Origin: Thermotogota bacterium
GTDB lineage: Bacteria; Thermotogota; Thermotogae; Thermotogales; DSM-5069
Length of the DNA stretch: 64,000 nt
Reading direction: 5' to 3'
Assembly (NCBI GenBank): GCA_029551145.1
Contig: JAKPGA010000034.1
Location: 1 to 64,000, forward strand
The translations under genes were made by a program, and so were the position numbers. Positions within the stretch are counted from its first letter, which is position 1. Every line of letters begins with the position of its first letter. Shown here in pieces: positions 39,707 through 48,151 of this stretch. Under the pieces are notes generated by a model, which had not been told where the DNA came from, searched no databases, and worked only from the letters and a program-made list of their open reading frames with translations.

Positions 39707-40732
39707 TCATCTATTTCTGAGTAATTCATAAGCCTCACCGTTTAAAATAGCACACCCAGCCGCTCCTCTTATGGTATTGTGGACGAGGGCTACAAATCTG
39801 AATCTTGTCGGTGACATTTGCACGAGCCGTCCAACGCTGACCGCCATCCCATTTGCAAGATTTCTGTGCAGCTTTGGTTGGGGCGATCTTTCTCCCGGTA
39901 AGTATATCAAAGGCTTTCTTGGAGCCGTTGGAAGGCCCAGATTTCTTAGAGGTTCAAATTCCTCAAAACTCTTGATGATATTATCAACATTTGTTTGTTG
40001 CTCTGTTTCTACAAAAACTGAAAGCATATGACCATCTTGGACTGGAACTCTGTTGCACTGTGCCTGCACATCGAATTCGGCAAACTCAATACGATTCTGT
40101 TCGAAACTACCCAATATCTTCTTTGATTCTGTCATAATCTTTTCTTCTTCGTTTTTTATGTAAGGTATGACGTTGTCAAGGATATCAAGGGAAGCTACAC
40201 CCGGGTAACCTGCCCCCGATATTGCCTGCATCGTTACAACATGTACCTGTCTTATGCCAAATCGATCGAAGATGGGTTTGAGAGGCATCACAAGTCCTAT
40301 CGTAGAGCAATTTGGATTCGTGACGATTTTACCCTTTGTTGTCTGATTATGGATCAAGTCGAGATGATCGAGGTTAACCTCTGGAACTATCAAAGGTACA
40401 TTTTCATCCATTCGATGACTTGAGGCGTTAGAGAACACAATATAACCCGCTTTGACAAATTCATCCTCTATTGGCCCGGCTATATCAGAAGGAAGCGCCG
40501 AGAAAACATAATCACAATCGAAATTGGGTTCGCACTTTTGTACTTCCATTTCAAAGACATTTTCAGGAATAGGCATATCCAAGTGCCACTGCACCGCTTG
40601 TCGATAACGCTTACCCGCAGAATTGTCAGAGGCTGCAACCACCGATATCTTGAAAAAAGGATGATTAGAAAGGATTTGGATGAATCTCTGCCCAACCAGC
40701 CCTGTGGCGCCAAGAACTGCGACCTTTCTCAT
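39707..40732 (-). CDS. asd: aspartate-semialdehyde dehydrogenase
   Basis: 341 aa, reducing aspartyl phosphate to aspartate semialdehyde with NADPH. VAVLGATGLVGQRF binds the nucleotide (~4-17), NPNCSTIGL holds the active-site Cys (~148-156) and AISGAGYPGV follows. The sequence is of the archaeal/fungal type (long insert PNFDCDYVFSALPSDIAGPIE). In this operon its product is the direct precursor for homocysteine via the DUF39 protein at 42413, rather than for homoserine; no homoserine dehydrogenase is encoded. Confidence 0.94.
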   Translation of the reverse strand: MRKVAVLGATGLVGQRFIQILSNHPFFKISVVAASDNSAGKRYRQAVQWHLDMPIPENVFEMEVQKCEPNFDCDYVFSALPSDIAGPIEDEFVKAGYIVFSNASSHRMDENVPLIVPEVNLDHLDLIHNQTTKGKIVTNPNCSTIGLVMPLKPIFDRFGIRQVHVVTMQAISGAGYPGVASLDILDNVIPYIKNEEEKIMTESKKILGSFEQNRIEFAEFDVQAQCNRVPVQDGHMLSVFVETEQQTNVDNIIKSFEEFEPLRNLGLPTAPRKPLIYLPGERSPQPKLHRNLANGMAVSVGRLVQMSPTRFRFVALVHNTIRGAAGCAILNGEAYELLRNR

Positions 40733-40735
40733 GCA

Positions 40736-41683
40736 CTAACCTCCTCTGCCAAAGACAGCCTCCATCAAAGCCTTTGTGGACTGTCCTTTACCCATTGTGA
40801 AAATGTGTATACCAGGAGCACCAAAGGAAAGCAGTCTTTCGGCTAATTTCGCCATGAATTTCGTCCCAATCTCGAATTCTTCCTTAGGGCTTCGAGCTTG
40901 CTGCATCTGCAATAAGAACGCGTGAGGTATATTCACAAAGAACTTCTTGGGAATACTGTAGATTGATTTCAAATTCACGATTGGTTTTATGCCAGGTATT
41001 ATGGGCACCTTTATGCCAAGCTCTCGAGACATCTCCACGAAATCCCTGTAAACATCAAAGTCAAATACCATCTGAGTAATCACATAATTCGCACCCGAAT
41101 CGATCTTTTCTTTCAGATGTTTCAGATCTTCTTGCAAATTCGGAGACTCGAAATGCTTCTCAGGATAGCCAGCAACGCCTATACAAAAATCTGTCGGCTG
41201 GGCGTTTTCACACGGGTACAAATACTCACCATTATTCATTCTTGAAATCTGTCTTACCAAATCCACTGCGTGTTTGTAGGTGTCCTTGTCTTCTGATTCC
41301 GTCGAATCCTCGTATTCACCTCTGATGACAAAGACATTTTCTACTCCAATCAGATGAAGATCTATGAGCATGTCTTCAATTTGATATTTGTCCATCCCAA
41401 AACACAGCACGTGTGGAACAACATCTATCTTGTATCTGTTCATAAGTGCCGCTGTCAAGCCAACCGTTCCCGGTCTCTTAACCTTTGGAACTTTGATTAT
41501 CCTGTCCGATAACTCCAAATAGGTCATCTGAGGTGCATGCCTCGTAACGTTTATGAAATTGATGGGGAAAATCATGAGACTGTCCAAAACTTGATATATT
41601 TCGTCTATGCTCTGTCCTCTACTTGGGGGTAGAATCTCTATTGAAAGGATCTGACCTTTGCTTATTCTTTCGGTTACCTTCAT
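40736..41683 (-). CDS. metF: methylenetetrahydrofolate reductase
   Basis: 315 aa TIM-barrel flavoprotein. LSIEILPPSRG (family start), NFINVTRHAP (~42-51), VENVFVIRGEYEDS (~113-126), FCIGVAGYPEKHFESPN, ANYVITQMVFDFDVYRDFV and VPIIPGIKPIVN match MetF. It makes 5-methyl-THF, the methyl donor for the MetH encoded upstream in the same operon. Its start overlaps the UPF0280 stop (ATGA). Confidence 0.93.
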   Translation of the reverse strand: MKVTERISKGQILSIEILPPSRGQSIDEIYQVLDSLMIFPINFINVTRHAPQMTYLELSDRIIKVPKVKRPGTVGLTAALMNRYKIDVVPHVLCFGMDKYQIEDMLIDLHLIGVENVFVIRGEYEDSTESEDKDTYKHAVDLVRQISRMNNGEYLYPCENAQPTDFCIGVAGYPEKHFESPNLQEDLKHLKEKIDSGANYVITQMVFDFDVYRDFVEMSRELGIKVPIIPGIKPIVNLKSIYSIPKKFFVNIPHAFLLQMQQARSPKEEFEIGTKFMAKLAERLLSFGAPGIHIFTMGKGQSTKALMEAVFGRGG

Positions 41684-42420
41684 TTTGATCCCCCTTCAGG
41701 TGCAACGAAAACCAATTCGTGCTTGCCCACAACGCCAAGTTTGTCTCTGTAGATGACCAAGACAGTTTGCACATATTCATTAAGTGCCTTTTGTATCAAT
41801 TCTTCAATGTCATTCTCATTTTTTATTATATTGCAGTAGGCTGTTGCAAAGGCATCGGCAACTGTAGCATTTTCAGAAACAACGGTCACTGCATCTGCCT
41901 TCCCAAAACTGATCGAATGCCCTACAGTACCAGAAGAAGTACACACACCCCAACTTCCTGCAGGTATCCGCAGAGCCACCTTTTGCGAGAGTGGAGAATC
42001 TCCTGCATAAATACAGACTGTCACAGGATCTGTGTTCTTGATGAAAATATCTCCACCGTTTTCTACAAGGACCTCGGAGCAACCAAAATCCTCTATCAAG
42101 AATCTCCCCACCTCATCTGCAAAGGCTCCAGCTACTGCTGCCATCGGTCCAACAGACGCATATTTGGCTGCCTCAGCCATTTTCTTTATCACCTTTGGAC
42201 TATCATCTGGGACTTCCAAAGGTACAAAAGACAAAAGGAACCGTTTGTTTTTCTTGATATAGTTACTCAACTGTTCATGTAACTCAACAACTAATTTGTA
42301 CGTCCTGTTGATCATTTGCTTTTCAAATCTATCCACACCGACCCAAAGGTCGGTTTCCCTGTATGTAACGTTGAAATTCTCAAATCTCCCATTGTGCAAA
42401 CTACGATAGAATCTATCCAT
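41680..42420 (-). CDS. UPF0280 (COG2122) protein, ApbE-like, homocysteine synthesis partner
   Basis: 246 aa. The stretch SVGPMAAVAGAFADEVGRFL, VLVENGGDIFI, then AGSWGVCTSSGTVGHSISFGKADAVTVVSENATVADAFAT is typical of the UPF0280 family, related to flavin-transferase ApbE. COG2122 proteins were implicated in sulfide assimilation into homocysteine in Methanosarcina and Desulfovibrio together with DUF39 proteins (from memory). The gene overlaps the DUF39 gene by 8 bases, which strongly supports joint function. Confidence 0.85.
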   Translation of the reverse strand: MDRFYRSLHNGRFENFNVTYRETDLWVGVDRFEKQMINRTYKLVVELHEQLSNYIKKNKRFLLSFVPLEVPDDSPKVIKKMAEAAKYASVGPMAAVAGAFADEVGRFLIEDFGCSEVLVENGGDIFIKNTDPVTVCIYAGDSPLSQKVALRIPAGSWGVCTSSGTVGHSISFGKADAVTVVSENATVADAFATAYCNIIKNENDIEELIQKALNEYVQTVLVIYRDKLGVVGKHELVFVAPEGGSK

Positions 42421-43741
42421 CTGGTGGAAGTTTCACCCCAACTGGACACGCGTCAGAACATTGTCCACACAAGACACATTTGTCGGCAATGAAGGTAAAT
42501 TTGCCGTCAATAAGCATCAAAGCATCAAAGGAACAAAGGCTCACGCAAAGGCCACAATCAACACATGTGGGCTTCTCAAATCCCGATTCTTCCGAATGTG
42601 TTTTTTCCTCAAGAACCTTCAGACTTCGTTGTTCACTGAACAATTTGACTGGTTGGGTGAGTAGAAATTCCCCTTCATTAATCCATCCCTTTAGGACAGA
42701 CGCTATCTCTCTTGCCATTGAGAGACTTGATATCGAAGAAGTCTTGACCTTTTTTCCATTTATGTCAATCCATCCAGATTTTAACTGTGCGTAATTGACC
42801 TGGCAAATCACGGGTTTTCCCAATTGACCGTAATCTCTTAGTTCTGTTTCGATCTCCTGATCTGATCTCGAGACATAGTAAGCAATCTCTTCATCTAAGA
42901 TCGGTATGGGAACACCTATACCCACAAAGAGCGTTACACCGTAGTTTTTGAAATACGCTGCCTTCAAATACCGTGGGTTCATTTTCTTGGCATCTCCAAT
43001 TACCGCAAGAGTTCTTGCCGAAGCAATTGGTATTCCATGCGCATTAACCTTCACAGAATTTCTGAACTGAGTTCCAGGCCAGACAACATAACCTTCACCA
43101 CCACACAGGAAGATTTTCGTACCAAGACCTATTGTAAGCATCTTGGGATCCTTCAAAAGTGGACTCAATTCACCAGAGGTCGAATAGGTCACATTACCGT
43201 AGTTTGGAAGCAATTTTCCCATGTATGTATAAATGGTTCTCTGTGAACTATTTGTCGCTGCTGCGTAATTCTGATAGGCATTCCTGGGGTTGAAAAGGAA
43301 AAAGTCGTTTATCATATCCTTGTTAATGTATCCCTCAAAATACTTTCGTGGATAACAATCGGTACCCTTGCCCGAAGCCCTTAGGTACAAATCTCTTCCA
43401 CTGATCAGTGCCTCAATTATATGTGCCCCACCGAATCTCCTGTCTTTCTTGGATTCCTGTGTCGCACCGATATAGCCATCGACGGCTGCCAAGCCACCAT
43501 ATACTTGAACATTGGACAGGTCTATTTCCTCCATACGCATTGGTGGAATTGTATGACCGAAATTGATAAAAGCGCCACTTGAACACATAGGTGCAAAGGT
43601 TGCGGTGGTCACCACATCAACTGTTTGCGCGATCTGTTTTGGACTCGACTGTTTCGCAAGCTGAACAACCTCTTCAGCTGTCAAAACCACTGCTTTCCCA
43701 CTTCTTATCCTTTCATTGATCTGTTCGATCGTCTTCATCAT
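42413..43741 (-). CDS. homocysteine biosynthesis protein (DUF39/HcyBio fused to 2x[4Fe-4S] ferredoxin)
   Basis: Start ATG at 43741 (AAGGA eight bases upstream) gives 442 aa. Residues ~1-360 are DUF39, with conserved cysteines in FAPMCSSGAFINFGHTIPP (Cys53) and GTDCYPRKYFEG (Cys129), close to positions 54 and 131 reported as important in the methanogen protein, as I recall. The C-terminal ~60 residues hold two cluster sites, CVDCGLCVSLC and CVLCGQCSDACP. The family converts aspartate semialdehyde plus sulfide to homocysteine; the ferredoxin part should supply the two electrons. Fusion of the two parts in one chain is notable. Confidence 0.88.
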   Translation of the reverse strand: MMKTIEQINERIRSGKAVVLTAEEVVQLAKQSSPKQIAQTVDVVTTATFAPMCSSGAFINFGHTIPPMRMEEIDLSNVQVYGGLAAVDGYIGATQESKKDRRFGGAHIIEALISGRDLYLRASGKGTDCYPRKYFEGYINKDMINDFFLFNPRNAYQNYAAATNSSQRTIYTYMGKLLPNYGNVTYSTSGELSPLLKDPKMLTIGLGTKIFLCGGEGYVVWPGTQFRNSVKVNAHGIPIASARTLAVIGDAKKMNPRYLKAAYFKNYGVTLFVGIGVPIPILDEEIAYYVSRSDQEIETELRDYGQLGKPVICQVNYAQLKSGWIDINGKKVKTSSISSLSMAREIASVLKGWINEGEFLLTQPVKLFSEQRSLKVLEEKTHSEESGFEKPTCVDCGLCVSLCSFDALMLIDGKFTFIADKCVLCGQCSDACPVGVKLPPDG

Positions 43742-45080
43742 TCTCACCATCCTTGAAAAATTCTTCATGAATGGCTCGCAAAGCTTTATCTCTATCTTGC
43801 AGTTTCACTATGAAGTATATCGTCACATCCGATGCACCTGCAGAGATCATTTCAACGTTTATGTGTTTTCTCGAAACAGCCGTGAAGATTCTTGCGGCAA
43901 TACCGTGCTTCTTCAAAAGACCATCTCCAACGGCTGCTATCAAAGATATCTCCGTTTTGTAGTGGATATCTTCTACTTCGGGTATCTGCATCTTCGAAGT
44001 TATTCGCATGCATCTCTCTATATCTTGTTTTGAGACAAGGACATTTATACTCGTCTGAGAGGTCACAACAGATTTGATGTTCACACCCTCGCTACCAAGG
44101 GTAGATGCAATTTGACCAAGTAACCCTGGTACACGACCGACGTTGGTACCTTTGAATTGTATCACCACGATATCATCGGTGAAGGATATGCTCTTTATTA
44201 CTGTTTTCGCTACAGAATCGTTGAAGGAGATGATCGTGTCAGGTCTATCGATTGATTCAAAAGTGTTTATGTTGAATATGTAAAGGGGGATACTTTTCTT
44301 GCGCACTGGGTCAACCGAGGCATGATGCAGAATCTTAGCGCCGAAGTACGAGAGCTCTGCGGCCTCATCGTAATTGAGTTTTCGAACTGGCTTAACTCCA
44401 TCGACGTACTTTGGGTCACATGTCATAAAACCTGATACATCTTTGTACAAATCTACTCTTTTTGCATTCAAACAATACGCTATTGACGTCGCCGAGTAAT
44501 CACTTCCTCCACGGCCAAGGATCGTTACCTGACCCTCATGAATGCCATAAAACCCTGGGACAACGTAGTTTTCTTTCTGGCTGAAGAACTTCCTGAGATT
44601 GACTTCTGAAGCAGACAGATCTACGGACGCATTCTTGAACTTACCGTCTGTGACCAAGCCGAAATTCTCCGGTAATGCTTCCTCACAATGAACGCCATTT
44701 TCATTTAAATAGTACGACAAGAGCATTGAAGAGCACCTTTCCCCATGACTAACCACTTCATCATAGATGAAATCAGGAACCTTACCTATGAGTTTTGTAC
44801 CCATCAAGAGCTCTTGTATTTCGTACACTCTTTTCTTTAACTGAACATTCTCTTCGCCTAAGAAACTCCTGTATGTGAGATACAAATCTTCAAGAAAACT
44901 TTCAACATCAAGATTTCTGATATTGTCCAGTGCATCTATCAATCTGTTTGTAACACCATTGACGGCGGAGACAACAACAATGAATGGTTCTTTATACATG
45001 CTCACAACTCTGAGTATTCTTTCAAGATCTGATCTGTTTTTCAAATTCGAACCACCGAATTTGAGCACAATCACCTTCAC
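43713..45080 (-). CDS. lysC: aspartate kinase
   Basis: GTG at 45080 behind GGGAGGTG gives 455 aa; it overlaps the metH stop as GTGA. Kinase domain starts VIVLKFGGSNLKNRSD, with the aspartate/ATP region VPGFYGIHEGQVTILGRGGSDYSATSIA (~195-222) and VSGFMTCDPKYV. Two C-terminal ACT domains (~300-455: SFTDDIVVIQFKGTNVGRVPGLLGQIASTL, AAVGDGLLKKHGIAARIFTAVSRKHINVEMIS) imply amino-acid feedback; the ligand may be methionine or a threonine/lysine relative. First step of the pathway leading to Asd. Confidence 0.93.
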   Translation of the reverse strand: MKVIVLKFGGSNLKNRSDLERILRVVSMYKEPFIVVVSAVNGVTNRLIDALDNIRNLDVESFLEDLYLTYRSFLGEENVQLKKRVYEIQELLMGTKLIGKVPDFIYDEVVSHGERCSSMLLSYYLNENGVHCEEALPENFGLVTDGKFKNASVDLSASEVNLRKFFSQKENYVVPGFYGIHEGQVTILGRGGSDYSATSIAYCLNAKRVDLYKDVSGFMTCDPKYVDGVKPVRKLNYDEAAELSYFGAKILHHASVDPVRKKSIPLYIFNINTFESIDRPDTIISFNDSVAKTVIKSISFTDDIVVIQFKGTNVGRVPGLLGQIASTLGSEGVNIKSVVTSQTSINVLVSKQDIERCMRITSKMQIPEVEDIHYKTEISLIAAVGDGLLKKHGIAARIFTAVSRKHINVEMISAGASDVTIYFIVKLQDRDKALRAIHEEFFKDGENDEDDRTDQ

Positions 45081-47395
45081 TTGGCACCTCCCTTTAAGAG
45101 TGTTTTGCACAACTGAAGGGCTTGAACGGCATCTTTGGCATAAAAAACACCGAATTGATCAGCCAGTTGTTGATTCATCGAAGCTCCACCAGCGAGCAGA
45201 AAAACATTGATTCCTTGCGATTTCAAAAGATCTGCGATTTCTTTCACCTGTCCGACGGTTGTAGTCATCATCGCGGAGAGTCCAACTATGTCTGGTTTGT
45301 AGTTTCTGCATTCCTGAAGAATCTTTTGTGCAGGTACGTCTTTGCCAATATCGTAGACTTCAAATCCCCCACTTCTTAAAACCGTTGCGACGATTTTCTT
45401 TCCAATGTCGTGGATATCGCCTTGAACTGTCGCAAGAAGTATCCTTCCAAGTACTACCTGGGATTCACCGAGCAGACTGTTCAAATAATCAAAGGCTGGT
45501 TGAACCGTTTCTGCAGCGAGAATCAAATGTGGTAAGTAGATATTCCCATTCGCATAAAGCGTTCCCACCTTCTTCATTGCTTCTGCAAGAATTTGTTGAC
45601 TGATGTATAAAGGATCGTGCTGTTTCAAGAGCTCTCGAACCGTATCCATCAACTTTTCCTTTTGCCCCTTTATTATCAAATCAACGAATGGATCCTGTGA
45701 AGTACTCTCAGTTTTCACAAGTTCTTTTCCCTGAAGCGACAGAGCGCCCGGTATGATATTCATTGTAAGAGTTTCTTTGCTGTTCAATATGGCACCACTC
45801 AAACCATTTTCAATACATAAAGCAAGAAATGCGGCATTTATGGACTCTCTGTTTGGCATACCAAAACTCAGATTGGAAAGACCAATCGAAGACCTTAAAC
45901 CAGCTTGCTTGATGAGATTTATCGTCTGCAAAGTTATGTGATAATCGTTTTTTGCACCTATCGGCAAAACAAGTGGGTCAAAGTAGACCCGATCCAGTTC
46001 GATTTTGTGTTCTTCAAGAATCTTGACAGCCTTCAGTACAAGTTGAAATCTTTCCTCGGCATTCCTTGGGATATCCTTTTCCATGGCGAGTACTATAAGT
46101 AATCCCCCATATCTTTTTAGAAGATCAACTCTCTGCAACAGATGATCTTCTCTTGCAAGCGCTGAATTGATCAAGCCTCTGCCAACATATTCTTTCATCG
46201 CGGCATCGAGAAAATCGATGTTCTGTATATCAAAGGAAACGGGCAGACAAGAATGTCTGTCAAGTTGAATCATTGCATCTTGAAAATGTTCTTTGCTCAA
46301 AAGTTTCTCGATACCGAAATTCACATCTATCGCCGCACAACCTTCTTGTTCTTGCTCTTGTGCAAGGGTTAGAACATTCGAAAAGTCCTTTGCCTGAATC
46401 TGAGTTTGAAGTTTCTTTTTACCACTTGCATTTATCCTTTCTCCAATTATGAGAAAGGTATCTATTGGTTTCAAAATCGTTCTTGAAGAAAGATGTTGAG
46501 TGCTAACGATCTCTCTTTTTCGAGGTCTCTTTGTTCCTATGTACTTGGTCATAACCTTTATGTGATCCGGTCCTGTACCACAGCAACCACCAACAATATT
46601 GGCACCAATTTCGACAAAGTCTGCCATGTAGACTGCAAATTCTTCAGGACTTGTCTTATAGGATAATTTCCCATTTTCCAGGATTGGTTTTCCTGCATTC
46701 GGCTCAACACTAAGCGGTTTCTTACTGTACTTCGCCAATCTTGCAAAAACTGAGAGCATTTGCTTTGGCTCAAGCGAACAATTTATGCCAACCACATCGA
46801 CATCAAGATCGTTCATGAGTGTGGCAAAGATCTCAACAGATGTACCAGTTACGGATTTTCCATCTTCCTCAAAGGTCATGTGTGCGATCAGTGGAAGATC
46901 ACTGGATAAGTCACGAACCGCAAGAACAGCAGCTTTGAGTTCTTTCAGATCCGACATCGTCTCGATAATTATTCCATCAACTCTGGCTTGTATAAGTACC
47001 GATGCCTGTTCCTTGAAGATCTCGTAGGCTTGATCGAAACTGATCTCACCAAGAGGTTGAACAAAACTCCCGGTTGAAGAGATGTCCCCAAAGACAAGTC
47101 TTCCCTTGGACACTGATCTTGCTATTTCGACGGCTCTGCGATTTATTCTCTCAAACTCGTCTTCAACGCCATGTGCTTTTAGTTTCATTCTGTTTGCACT
47201 GAAGGTATTTGTAAGAAGAATATCGGCACCGGCTTGAATGTACTCAGTCTGAAGTCTTTCAACGGCACCAGGGTCATTTATATTCAGTAGTTCTATCAAC
47301 CCCTTAAATCCTCTTTTGAAGAACTCAGTACCATAGGCACCATCGAGAAATAGTACTCTCTCATTCAACATTCTCAGGAACTCTTCTCTTCTCAT
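45077..47395 (-). CDS. metH: cobalamin-dependent methionine synthase lacking the reactivation domain
   Basis: 772 aa against ~1,230 for E. coli MetH. Homocysteine-binding barrel (~1-300) with the zinc cysteines in VGINCSLEPKQ (~205) and GGCCGTGPDH (~268); folate barrel (~315-570) starting TFLIIGERINASGKKKL; cap domain; B12 domain with VQGDIHDIGKKIVATVLRSG (~656-675, the DxHxxG cobalt ligand) and VGLSAMMTTTV. The fourth domain, AdoMet-binding reactivation, is missing and is supplied by the gene at 47361, which overlaps it. Same split as the Thermotoga pair TM0268/TM0269 as I recall. Confidence 0.94.
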   Translation of the reverse strand: MRREEFLRMLNERVLFLDGAYGTEFFKRGFKGLIELLNINDPGAVERLQTEYIQAGADILLTNTFSANRMKLKAHGVEDEFERINRRAVEIARSVSKGRLVFGDISSTGSFVQPLGEISFDQAYEIFKEQASVLIQARVDGIIIETMSDLKELKAAVLAVRDLSSDLPLIAHMTFEEDGKSVTGTSVEIFATLMNDLDVDVVGINCSLEPKQMLSVFARLAKYSKKPLSVEPNAGKPILENGKLSYKTSPEEFAVYMADFVEIGANIVGGCCGTGPDHIKVMTKYIGTKRPRKREIVSTQHLSSRTILKPIDTFLIIGERINASGKKKLQTQIQAKDFSNVLTLAQEQEQEGCAAIDVNFGIEKLLSKEHFQDAMIQLDRHSCLPVSFDIQNIDFLDAAMKEYVGRGLINSALAREDHLLQRVDLLKRYGGLLIVLAMEKDIPRNAEERFQLVLKAVKILEEHKIELDRVYFDPLVLPIGAKNDYHITLQTINLIKQAGLRSSIGLSNLSFGMPNRESINAAFLALCIENGLSGAILNSKETLTMNIIPGALSLQGKELVKTESTSQDPFVDLIIKGQKEKLMDTVRELLKQHDPLYISQQILAEAMKKVGTLYANGNIYLPHLILAAETVQPAFDYLNSLLGESQVVLGRILLATVQGDIHDIGKKIVATVLRSGGFEVYDIGKDVPAQKILQECRNYKPDIVGLSAMMTTTVGQVKEIADLLKSQGINVFLLAGGASMNQQLADQFGVFYAKDAVQALQLCKTLLKGGAK

Positions 47396-47948
47396 CAAAC
47401 CACCCTATCATGCAAGTTGTAGTCTTTCTTGGAATCATCACTCCGCTGTCCAAAACCTTTACCTGATCGACCTTTAACAGTTCTCTCACTATATACCCAT
47501 TCATTCTTAGATCAACATTCCCATAACCAGGTGAGAAGCGCATTGTACCTTTCCCGAATCTCTCTCTGAGCAGATGATCGAATCTTTCGTTGAGTTTCTC
47601 AAGCGACTCGGATGCCCACGAGTCGACTATAAAGGCATCAAAGGTTCTTTGTTGTTCAGTTAATCGTGATATTAAATTGTCTATCGATGAACCAAGGGTA
47701 GAAAGAAATACCGTTATCGCCGTGACATTTTGAAAGTTCGATGGTATCATCTGCTCTGGCAGTAAAGAAAGACTCAAAGTGCTGTAAAAGACGACTGGTT
47801 CTATTTTTTCAAGCGCAACCAAGAACAACTCGTTAACACGGTGTATCAGGCTTTCATCTATTCTGCCGTATCTTGCTCCAGCTCTTGAAAGGAAGATTCT
47901 CTTGTCCGGCATACAATCAAGTCTGTCCGGGTAGAAAACTTCGCTCAC
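47361..47948 (-). CDS. MetH reactivation-domain-like protein (stand-alone)
   Basis: 195 aa from GTG at 47948 (GAGGTGGGACA upstream). RLDCMPDKRIFLSRAGARYGRIDESLIHRVNELFLVALEKIEPVVFYSTL, VTAITVFLSTLGSSIDNLI, DSWASESLEKLNERFDHLLRERFGKG and MRFSPGYGNVDLRMN follow the AdoMet-binding domain of MetH (R-x-S-x-G-Y-G motif near 155). It should remethylate oxidised cob(II)alamin on MetH using AdoMet and a reductant. First structural gene of the methionine operon, directly behind the attenuator, overlapping metH by 35 bases. Confidence 0.88.
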   Translation of the reverse strand: MSEVFYPDRLDCMPDKRIFLSRAGARYGRIDESLIHRVNELFLVALEKIEPVVFYSTLSLSLLPEQMIPSNFQNVTAITVFLSTLGSSIDNLISRLTEQQRTFDAFIVDSWASESLEKLNERFDHLLRERFGKGTMRFSPGYGNVDLRMNGYIVRELLKVDQVKVLDSGVMIPRKTTTCMIGWFDEKRRVPENVE

Positions 47949-47975: not shown

Positions 47976-48010
47976 AAAAAAGGGGCGCTTCCATCTTTGG
48001 AAACGCCCCT
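47976..48010 (-). terminator. attenuator terminator ahead of the methionine operon
   Basis: On the minus strand GGGGCGUUUCCA-AAGA-UGGAAGCGCCCC (12 bp with one U-G pair), then UUUUUU. It lies between the leader ORF and the first structural gene (start 47948), with no gene upstream of it other than the leader ORF, so it can only act on this operon's own transcripts. Confidence 0.9.
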
Positions 48011-48060
48011 TTTAGTATCTCCAAGCACGATCAAATGCCCGGAATACCTCCAGGGGCATC
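48003..48060 (-). promoter_or_regulatory. antiterminator and anti-antiterminator arms of the attenuator
   Basis: AUGCCCCU (48059-48052) pairs with AGGGGCGU (48010-48003), the 5' arm of the terminator. Nested inside, GGUAUUCC (48048-48041) pairs with GGAGAUACU (48022-48014) with one bulge; the two 8-bp stems are joined by a 3x3 internal loop. A competing hairpin pairs AUGCCC (48059-48054) with GGGCAU (48040-48035). Terminator and antiterminator exclude each other. Confidence 0.75.
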
Positions 48061-48123
48061 AATGCGCATTATCATAATTGTGTCACACACACCCGATGAA
48101 ATCACCGTTTGAACGTATCTCAT
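48031..48123 (-). CDS. leader peptide ORF of the methionine operon (30 codons)
   Basis: ATG at 48123, seven bases after GGAGG, a perfectly spaced RBS, then 30 codons and TGA at 48033-48031. The peptide begins MRYVQTVISSGVCDT and ends RIDAPGGIPGI. Codons 17-19 are ATG ATA ATG (Met-Ile-Met) and codon 13 is TGT (Cys), so both sulfur amino acids appear just before the RNA arms. The antiterminator arm AUGCCCCU begins at codon 22; the stop codon overlaps the region of the competing arms. Too short for homology; evidence is the RBS, position and RNA structure. I infer a regulatory rather than an enzymatic role. Confidence 0.72.
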   Translation of the reverse strand: MRYVQTVISSGVCDTIMIMRIDAPGGIPGI

Positions 48124-48145
48124 GCGACAGCCTCCGTTTTGCTTT

Positions 48146-48151
48146 ATTATA
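48146..48151 (-). promoter_or_regulatory. -10 element of the methionine operon promoter
   Basis: Perfect TATAAT on the minus strand (48151-48146), ~23 bases upstream of the leader ATG, preceded by A-rich sequence (CGAAAATAAAAG) that could be an UP element. The -35 is weak (TAAAAG at 17 bases). Confidence 0.6.

Follow-up and report, generated by a model that had tools for sequence, protein, structure and literature searches.

A candidate methionine leader-peptide attenuator before the act-metH operon of Pseudothermotoga, with related leaders before methionine genes in Thermotogota

INTRODUCTION

The methionine genes of bacteria have been described as lying under the control of SAM riboswitches, T-boxes or repressor proteins. 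The SAM-I riboswitch (S-box) and the methionine T-box act through the structure of a 5' leader RNA, by direct binding of SAM or of uncharged tRNA and with no translated ORF. In the classical trp, his, leu, thr, phe and ilv leaders, repeated codons for the amino acid that the operon makes are combined with a protector, an antiterminator and an intrinsic terminator, and the position at which the ribosome stalls selects the fold. Within the Thermotogales, Vitreschak et al. in 2004 reportedly predicted attenuators for branched-chain amino acids, histidine, threonine, tryptophan and phenylalanine only, and none for methionine. Attenuators for Ile/Val and Phe are named in a 2013 survey of regulatory RNAs, in addition to the His, Leu, Thr and Trp families that it gives from Rfam (PMC3766115).

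Codons for a sulfur amino acid within a leader ORF have been described for the cys operons of actinobacteria and for uORFC-8-2, found before cysS in Rhodobacterales (PMC1262725; PMC8632094). These leaders carry Cys rather than Met codons, precede other genes in other phyla and, in the actinobacterial cases, lack obvious terminators. Upstream of methionine operons the actinobacterial survey saw no conserved structure, the leaders that it reported being those for Trp, Leu and Cys (PMC1262725), and methionine leader peptides go unmentioned in the passages retrieved from a survey of premature terminators (PMC2965389). A uORF has likewise been proposed to answer to methionine in the fthC motif of Streptococcus, via the initiator tRNA (PMC11109978). 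It differs from the leader described here in acting at initiation and on a single gene, and no common architecture was seen.

Here we describe a leader within a 64,000-nt stretch of DNA from a Thermotogota bacterium (the window; GCA_029551145.1, contig JAKPGA010000034.1, positions 1 to 64,000). Like the S-box and the T-box, it would place methionine genes under control of a 5' leader RNA, and it has the same components as the classical attenuators. It departs from the latter in its amino acid, which is methionine, and in a two-part antiterminator in which a duplex of region 1 with arm 4 encloses a helix of regions 2 and 3. The attenuators named above for Thermotogales share its mechanism and phylum but serve other amino acids. 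The original prediction for this locus knew of no earlier account of such control, and no published description of a methionine leader-peptide attenuator was found in the open-access literature, where an unlisted description is possible. The leader would represent a known mechanism with a new amino-acid specificity, apparently serving as a regulon throughout the phylum.

RESULTS

The leader lies on the minus strand of the window, with the divergent gene for ribosomal protein L31 on one side and the following genes on the other:

47361-47948, minus strand: act, the first structural gene, encoding a 195-aa protein without Pfam or NCBIfam match
45077-47398, minus strand: metH, homocysteine methyltransferase (Pfam S-methyl_trans, Pterin_bind and B12-binding; top NCBIfam match metH, below cut-off)
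43713-45110, minus strand: aspartokinase, lysC-like (Pfam AA_kinase and ACT_9)
42413-43768, minus strand: HcyBio, homocysteine biosynthesis/sulfur incorporation, with a 4Fe-4S domain (Pfam PF01837, E=6e-144)
41680-42420, minus strand: UPF0280 / ApbE-like, putative HcyBio partner by context (NCBIfam PRK04334 below cut-off; weak ApbE match)
40736-41683, minus strand: metF, methylenetetrahydrofolate reductase (Pfam MTHFR)
39707-40732, minus strand: asd, aspartate-semialdehyde dehydrogenase (Pfam Semialdhyde_dh and Semialdhyde_dhC)

All of these genes are on one strand with neighbours that overlap or nearly touch, a spacing from which we infer a single operon, act-metH-lysC-HcyBio-UPF0280-metF-asd. 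The 195-aa protein is named here as a MetH reactivation-domain homologue, following the original prediction and the gene context. The logic of the aspartate-to-methionine pathway is established knowledge, and the gene set makes a coherent path from aspartate through aspartate semialdehyde to homocysteine, by direct sulfur incorporation with HcyBio, and on to methionine. The leader itself consists of the following parts:

48189-48164, minus strand: conserved inverted-repeat-like element TTTACTTTTCGAAAATAAAAGCGTAA, a block kept in all four genus members between divergent flanks
48151-48146, minus strand: -10 box TATAAT, with GATATAATA unchanged in four genomes
48135-48131, minus strand: RBS GGAGG of the leader ORF; all four genus members have a Shine-Dalgarno-like match before the start codon
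48123-48031, minus strand: leader ORF of 30 codons encoding MRYVQTVISSGVCDTIMIMRIDAPGGIPGI, with ATG at 48123 and stop at 48033-48031
48075-48067, minus strand: Met codon box AUG AUA AUG, codons 17-19, the predicted sensing element; TATGATAATG unchanged in all four genus members
48067-48025, minus strand: protector (1:2) hairpin, which starts on the final base of Met19 and runs slightly beyond the stop codon (segment MFE -17.3 kcal/mol)
48059-48052, minus strand: region 1 AUGCCCCU, the antiterminator strand, with 8-bp complementarity to the terminator 5' arm AGGGGCGU, co-change with arm 4 and support from masked folding
48048-48035, minus strand: region 2 GGUAUUCCGGGCAU, partner of region 3 (antiterminator inner helix) or of region 1 (protector), from the MFE fold and alignment A1
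48028-48014, minus strand: region 3 GUGCUUGGAGAUACU, partner of region 2 in the MFE fold; the pairing survives changes at columns 31-33/58-61 of alignment A2
47976-48009, minus strand: intrinsic terminator, a 12-bp stem 48009-47982 (arms 4 and 5) followed by U6 at 47981-47976, from sequence and MFE fold and also present in relatives

The TATAAT box, the 30-codon ORF with its RBS, Met17 (48075), Met19 (48069), the Cys at codon 13 and the 12-bp terminator with U6 were all found where the original prediction had placed them. A simple terminator scan of the window did not flag the 48009-47982 hairpin; folding shows it clearly. The antiterminator had been predicted as two stems, of which AUGCCCCU:AGGGGCGU does exclude the terminator, whereas GGUAUUCC:GGAGAUACU coexists with it in the MFE fold, being a portion of a longer 14-bp helix (48048-48035 with 48028-48014). 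The protector hairpin was absent from that account.

The leader precedes act-metH in all four Pseudothermotoga genomes compared (the window species, G063, G064 and G065) and was not present before act in the other genera of the family among the genomes compared. The relatives encode the peptides VKSLGIFIHFENNVIVMIMCIHAPGGAPGI, VGNFGTYHFEKNVMAMIMCIYAPGGSPGF and MISVVIKNFFRINAMIMRTDAPKDSPGV. In each of the four the ORF is open, has 28-30 codons, includes MIM(C/R) and ends exactly 11 codons past the second Met. Start, RBS and frame are kept while the N-terminal peptide sequence diverges, and indels measure 3 and 6 nt within the ORF, multiples of three, and 1-2 nt outside it. The ORF is also seen in the wider set of related leaders, some with a weak RBS. 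From box to stop, variable columns number 5, 4 and 4 of 14 by codon position, and third-position bias as a coding test of this segment is thus negative; selection there therefore acts mostly on RNA shape. The window leader folds with z = -4.7 relative to dinucleotide shuffles (0 of 200 as good), and its three relatives with z = -3.9, -5.3 and -5.6. Comparison with relatives had been proposed as a check on the original prediction, and frame, Met codons and arms are indeed kept within the genus, with homologous leaders before other methionine genes elsewhere. Strong intergenic terminators are common, and a plain terminator, or a small RNA, lying between divergent genes would need no regulatory coupling; with an alternative pairing that is kept, a leader ORF, a promoter and an association with methionine genes, this explanation is scarcely credible.

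That conservation is strongest from box to terminator, at the RNA level, is also what would be expected of a new riboswitch or of a binding site for an attenuator protein, the ORF being fortuitous, and SAM riboswitches serve methionine genes in other bacteria. The SAM-I covariance model (RF00162) has no match in the window or the genus, and neither the T-box nor any other Rfam family scores above its gathering threshold in the window and 16 related loci. A fortuitous ORF would also leave its start, RBS, frame and in-frame indels to be kept beside a divergent N-terminus, and no methionine or SAM aptamer explains the exchange of the box for His, Trp or Phe/Tyr/Trp codons before matching genes, described below. 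We regard an aptamer or protein site as very improbable, and return to the leader as a device read by the ribosome.

To model the geometry of stalling, the 29 nt covered by a ribosome were masked for every A-site codon in turn, and pairing was computed in a transcript lacking the terminator 3' arm. When the A site holds the second Met codon, the antiterminator forms with P = 1.00 at 37 C in all four species (0.99 in one leader at 65 C). One codon further P falls to 0.20-0.40 in the four genus leaders, and beyond this it is 0, returning only near the stop codon. A ribosome on the stop codon leaves region 1 free again before the terminator 3' arm is made, and termination would then depend on the covered region 2. 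In 20 of 22 leaders the termination switch lies 0-2 codons from the last box codon, the exceptions being L131, which has an additional Met codon three codons on, and L107. The original prediction that a stall at Met17 favours the antiterminator agrees with this placement of the switch at the Met box. On the thermodynamics of the transcription intermediate, a mutually exclusive antiterminator would be governed by ribosome position.

The contrast across ribosome positions is weaker when any upstream pairing is scored instead, because of background pairing. When the full leader is folded to equilibrium, the terminator is favoured at any ribosome position in the window leader and in G063, and mostly in G064; a clear switch is seen in G065 only and a partial one in G064. 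Transcription-coupled attenuation is kinetic, and in the window leader and G063, where the terminator prevails throughout at equilibrium, the switch would therefore be kinetic.

In the same transcription intermediate, the antiterminator forms on the ribosome-free RNA of all four genus leaders. This is consistent with sensing at initiation, where low fMet-tRNA would reduce translation of the leader, an untranslated leader would read through and the internal Met codons would be secondary; a comparable fMet idea has been proposed for the streptococcal fthC uORF (PMC11109978). Such a device would leave unexplained the position of the Met box, and of His, Trp and aromatic boxes, at the hinge of the switch, and the stable protector hairpin would form first on an untranslated leader and favour termination. 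Initiation sensing as the main signal is unlikely. Because AUG also governs initiation, an elongation-based attenuator could nonetheless be touched by methionine starvation at that step, and the device may read methionine supply there too.

The two strands of the antiterminator vary together. In the window, the region 1:arm 4 duplex is equalled by 12 of 500 shuffled versions of region 1. Most leaders pair GCCCC with GGGGC, and joint variants are GGCACCTGG:CCAGGTGTT in L118, TGGCCGCC:GGCGGTCA in L131 and GCCCTCTTCC:GGAAGAGGGC in L128. When arms are exchanged between leaders, matched and mismatched duplexes differ only weakly (-17.1 vs -13.6 kcal/mol), because most leaders share GCCCC/GGGGC. The protector hairpin starts at or next to the last box base in eight leaders (L001, L004, L115, L116, L090, L091, L092 and L120), and its pair 18-40 is U-A, C-G or U-G in eight of nine in-register leaders, including a compensatory U-A/C-G change.

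The codon just past the box is itself paired in the protector hairpin and covaries with its partner, as GUGCAC:GUGCAC in L091, GCGCAC:GUGUGC in L004 and GUAC:GUAC in L092. It encodes Arg in the window species, G063, family f7 and some of f8, Tyr in the Mesotoga-like leaders and Cys in many others, which gives boxes of the form MIMC and MMMC. The original prediction had the leader sensing both methionine and cysteine. Its methionine half is supported by a box that is kept and by methionine genes downstream; its cysteine half is not supported, as Cys13 occurs in the window species and is missing from the other three genus members. A dual attenuator with Cys codons as a second sensor would draw on Cys13 and on the frequent Cys past the Met box, but the latter codon varies among Cys, Arg and Tyr along with its hairpin partner, and in masked folding of most leaders a stall there already loses most antitermination. 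Given the pairing and covariation of this codon, RNA structure accounts better than Cys sensing for its frequent identity as Cys. No conserved Cys codon occurs at a position predicted to give antitermination, so a cysteine component is not supported by the alignments or the folding, and dual sensing is decidedly unlikely.

To place the methionine box in a wider context, a covariance model (R1) was trained on the four genus act-metH leaders alone and searched against 103 Thermotogota genomes at E <= 0.001. Of 18 further Thermotogota matches, 16 lie directly before methionine genes (Pfam checks on representatives), and the boxes of these 16 read MIM or MMM. They precede metQNI in ten genomes of family f9, here called Mesotoga-like (a label of convenience, not used as evidence), and in G002; HcyBio in G002 and G011; aspartokinase-asd-HcyBio in G006; aspartokinase in G007, whose contig ends soon past there; and metF-act-metH in G016. 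The MetQ assignment rests on an NlpA/MetQ family match, and the substrates are putative. Another match, L105 (4001-4105, minus strand; family f2), has CAT CAC CAT in the peptide LHHHQNAPG and precedes hisZ and further his genes. The last, L107, comes from a genome of family f3, where an uncharacterized gene follows it. L107, L130 and L132, from three f3 genomes, share a common leader (SFVLFEQGILSDMIMCTT..) before a protein of about 170 aa without Pfam or NCBIfam match, and the switch of L107 falls four codons past the Met box, adjoining Thr codons.

A second-round model (R2) added leaders with MMMRW before lysC-HcyBio in G014 and G015, MMMC before metQNI in G018, MMIMC before lysC-HcyBio in G079, and MVMC before a second metQ-like gene without adjacent metNI in Mesotoga-like genomes (L122, L126 and L127). 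It also found L129 (2001-2101, plus strand), where ..RFWWWQEAP and a stop precede a trpB-like gene within the architecture of the Met leaders, and L128 (G057:C1:490300-490415, minus strand), where KKFFYAYWF precedes DAHP synthase in a genome of the window's own family. In Thermotogota, 24 matches to R2 score above 42 bits; each is a Met-box leader, 23 stand before methionine genes, and most belong to the R2 training set. Since R1 and R2 both include the AUG box, the box is not an independent discovery; the genes downstream of R1 matches are. Among R2 matches, L117, L123, L124 and L125 were rejected as gene ends, inside a gene or antisense. Searched against 501 control genomes (300 Bacillota and 201 Chloroflexota), R2 returned 11 matches at E <= 0.001, the best with 39.1 bits. 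All 11 were rejected as leaders: they were gene-end terminators, and in no case did a codon box precede a methionine gene.

The same genes bear on whether the leader is a general sensor of slowed translation or of antibiotics, a uORF attenuator indifferent to the amino acid. Region 1 would be free under any stall ahead of codon 19, as such a sensor would require. It would give no account of the 16 of 18 independent R1 matches before methionine genes, or of His, Trp and aromatic boxes before the matching pathways, and no resistance gene was seen adjoining the leaders. A non-specific sensor is thus highly improbable.

In Coprothermobacterota, R2 detected MIMC leaders before act-metH in G104 and G105. 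The Coprothermobacter act protein of L115 is 61% identical to that of the window, and in a tree the act proteins of L115 and L116 nest within the Pseudothermotoga family (clade support 96/95). This position suggests lateral, cross-phylum transfer of operon and leader together, between the Pseudothermotoga family and Coprothermobacter. A pattern scan of 85k genomes gave seven matches; two, L073 and L076, have the leader, and the other five, without arms and terminator, were rejected. Neither plasmids (tblastn with the Coprothermobacter peptide) nor viral contigs (pattern scan) gave a match. Two Met leaders are orphans without the operon: L073 (6462-6578, minus strand), which resembles L116 only until soon past the leader, and L119 (2001-2115, plus strand), which is followed by no aspartokinase.

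DISCUSSION

The leader has the parts of a leader-peptide attenuator, namely an ORF with an RBS and predicted translation, cognate codons at the control position and a terminator before the first gene. It is very probably a transcription attenuator of the ribosome-mediated type, with charged elongator tRNA-Met as the species sensed, and sequence comparison and folding support the core of the original interpretation. The parts, their conservation, the match of codon to pathway and, by folding, the geometry of the stall are direct observations of this work. From them we infer stalling, termination and read-through in cells, with methionine as the signal.

Transcription of the leader by RNA polymerase would be accompanied by translation of the 30-codon peptide. 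When methionine is sufficient, the ribosome would pass codons 17-19 and cover first region 1, AUGCCCCU, then region 2. This would keep region 1 from pairing with the terminator 5' arm, the 12-bp terminator with U6 would form, and transcription would stop near 47976. Under a shortage of Met-tRNA, the ribosome would stall at the point where its A site holds Met17 or Met19. So placed, it would block the protector hairpin, whose 5' side begins with the last base of Met19, and leave region 1 just free. Pairing of region 2 with region 3, and of region 1 with the terminator 5' arm, would make up the antiterminator and allow transcription of act-metH-lysC-HcyBio-UPF0280-metF-asd.

A broader reading, to which we give an even chance, joins these results: attenuation by Met leaders would form a Thermotogota regulon (metH, HcyBio, lysC-asd, metF and metQNI) in the place of SAM riboswitches, built from one cassette in which the codon box has been swapped (Met, His, Trp or aromatic), transferred together with its operon between the Pseudothermotoga family and Coprothermobacter, and perhaps reading methionine at both initiation and elongation. 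SAM-I was found in 12 of the 103 Thermotogota genomes, all of family f10, and none of these has a Met leader. Such a regulon would extend the classical mechanism to the initiator amino acid and offer a regulatory explanation for many Thermotogota without SAM-I. It would also predict a methionine role for the genes that follow the leaders, including HcyBio, UPF0280 and NlpA/MetQ-type transporters. Natural comparison sets are provided by leaders whose main difference is the codon box.

Upstream of the leader ORF, no good -35 hexamer was found at the usual distance from the TATAAT box in a scan of the window leader, and the inverted-repeat-like element occupies that place. Across the genus the element follows the pattern TTTAC(C/T)TT...AAAATAAA.G(C/T)GTAA, directly 5' of the -10 box, and it has one match in the window where none is expected. 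The element at 48189-48164 is possibly an operator or an unusual promoter element.
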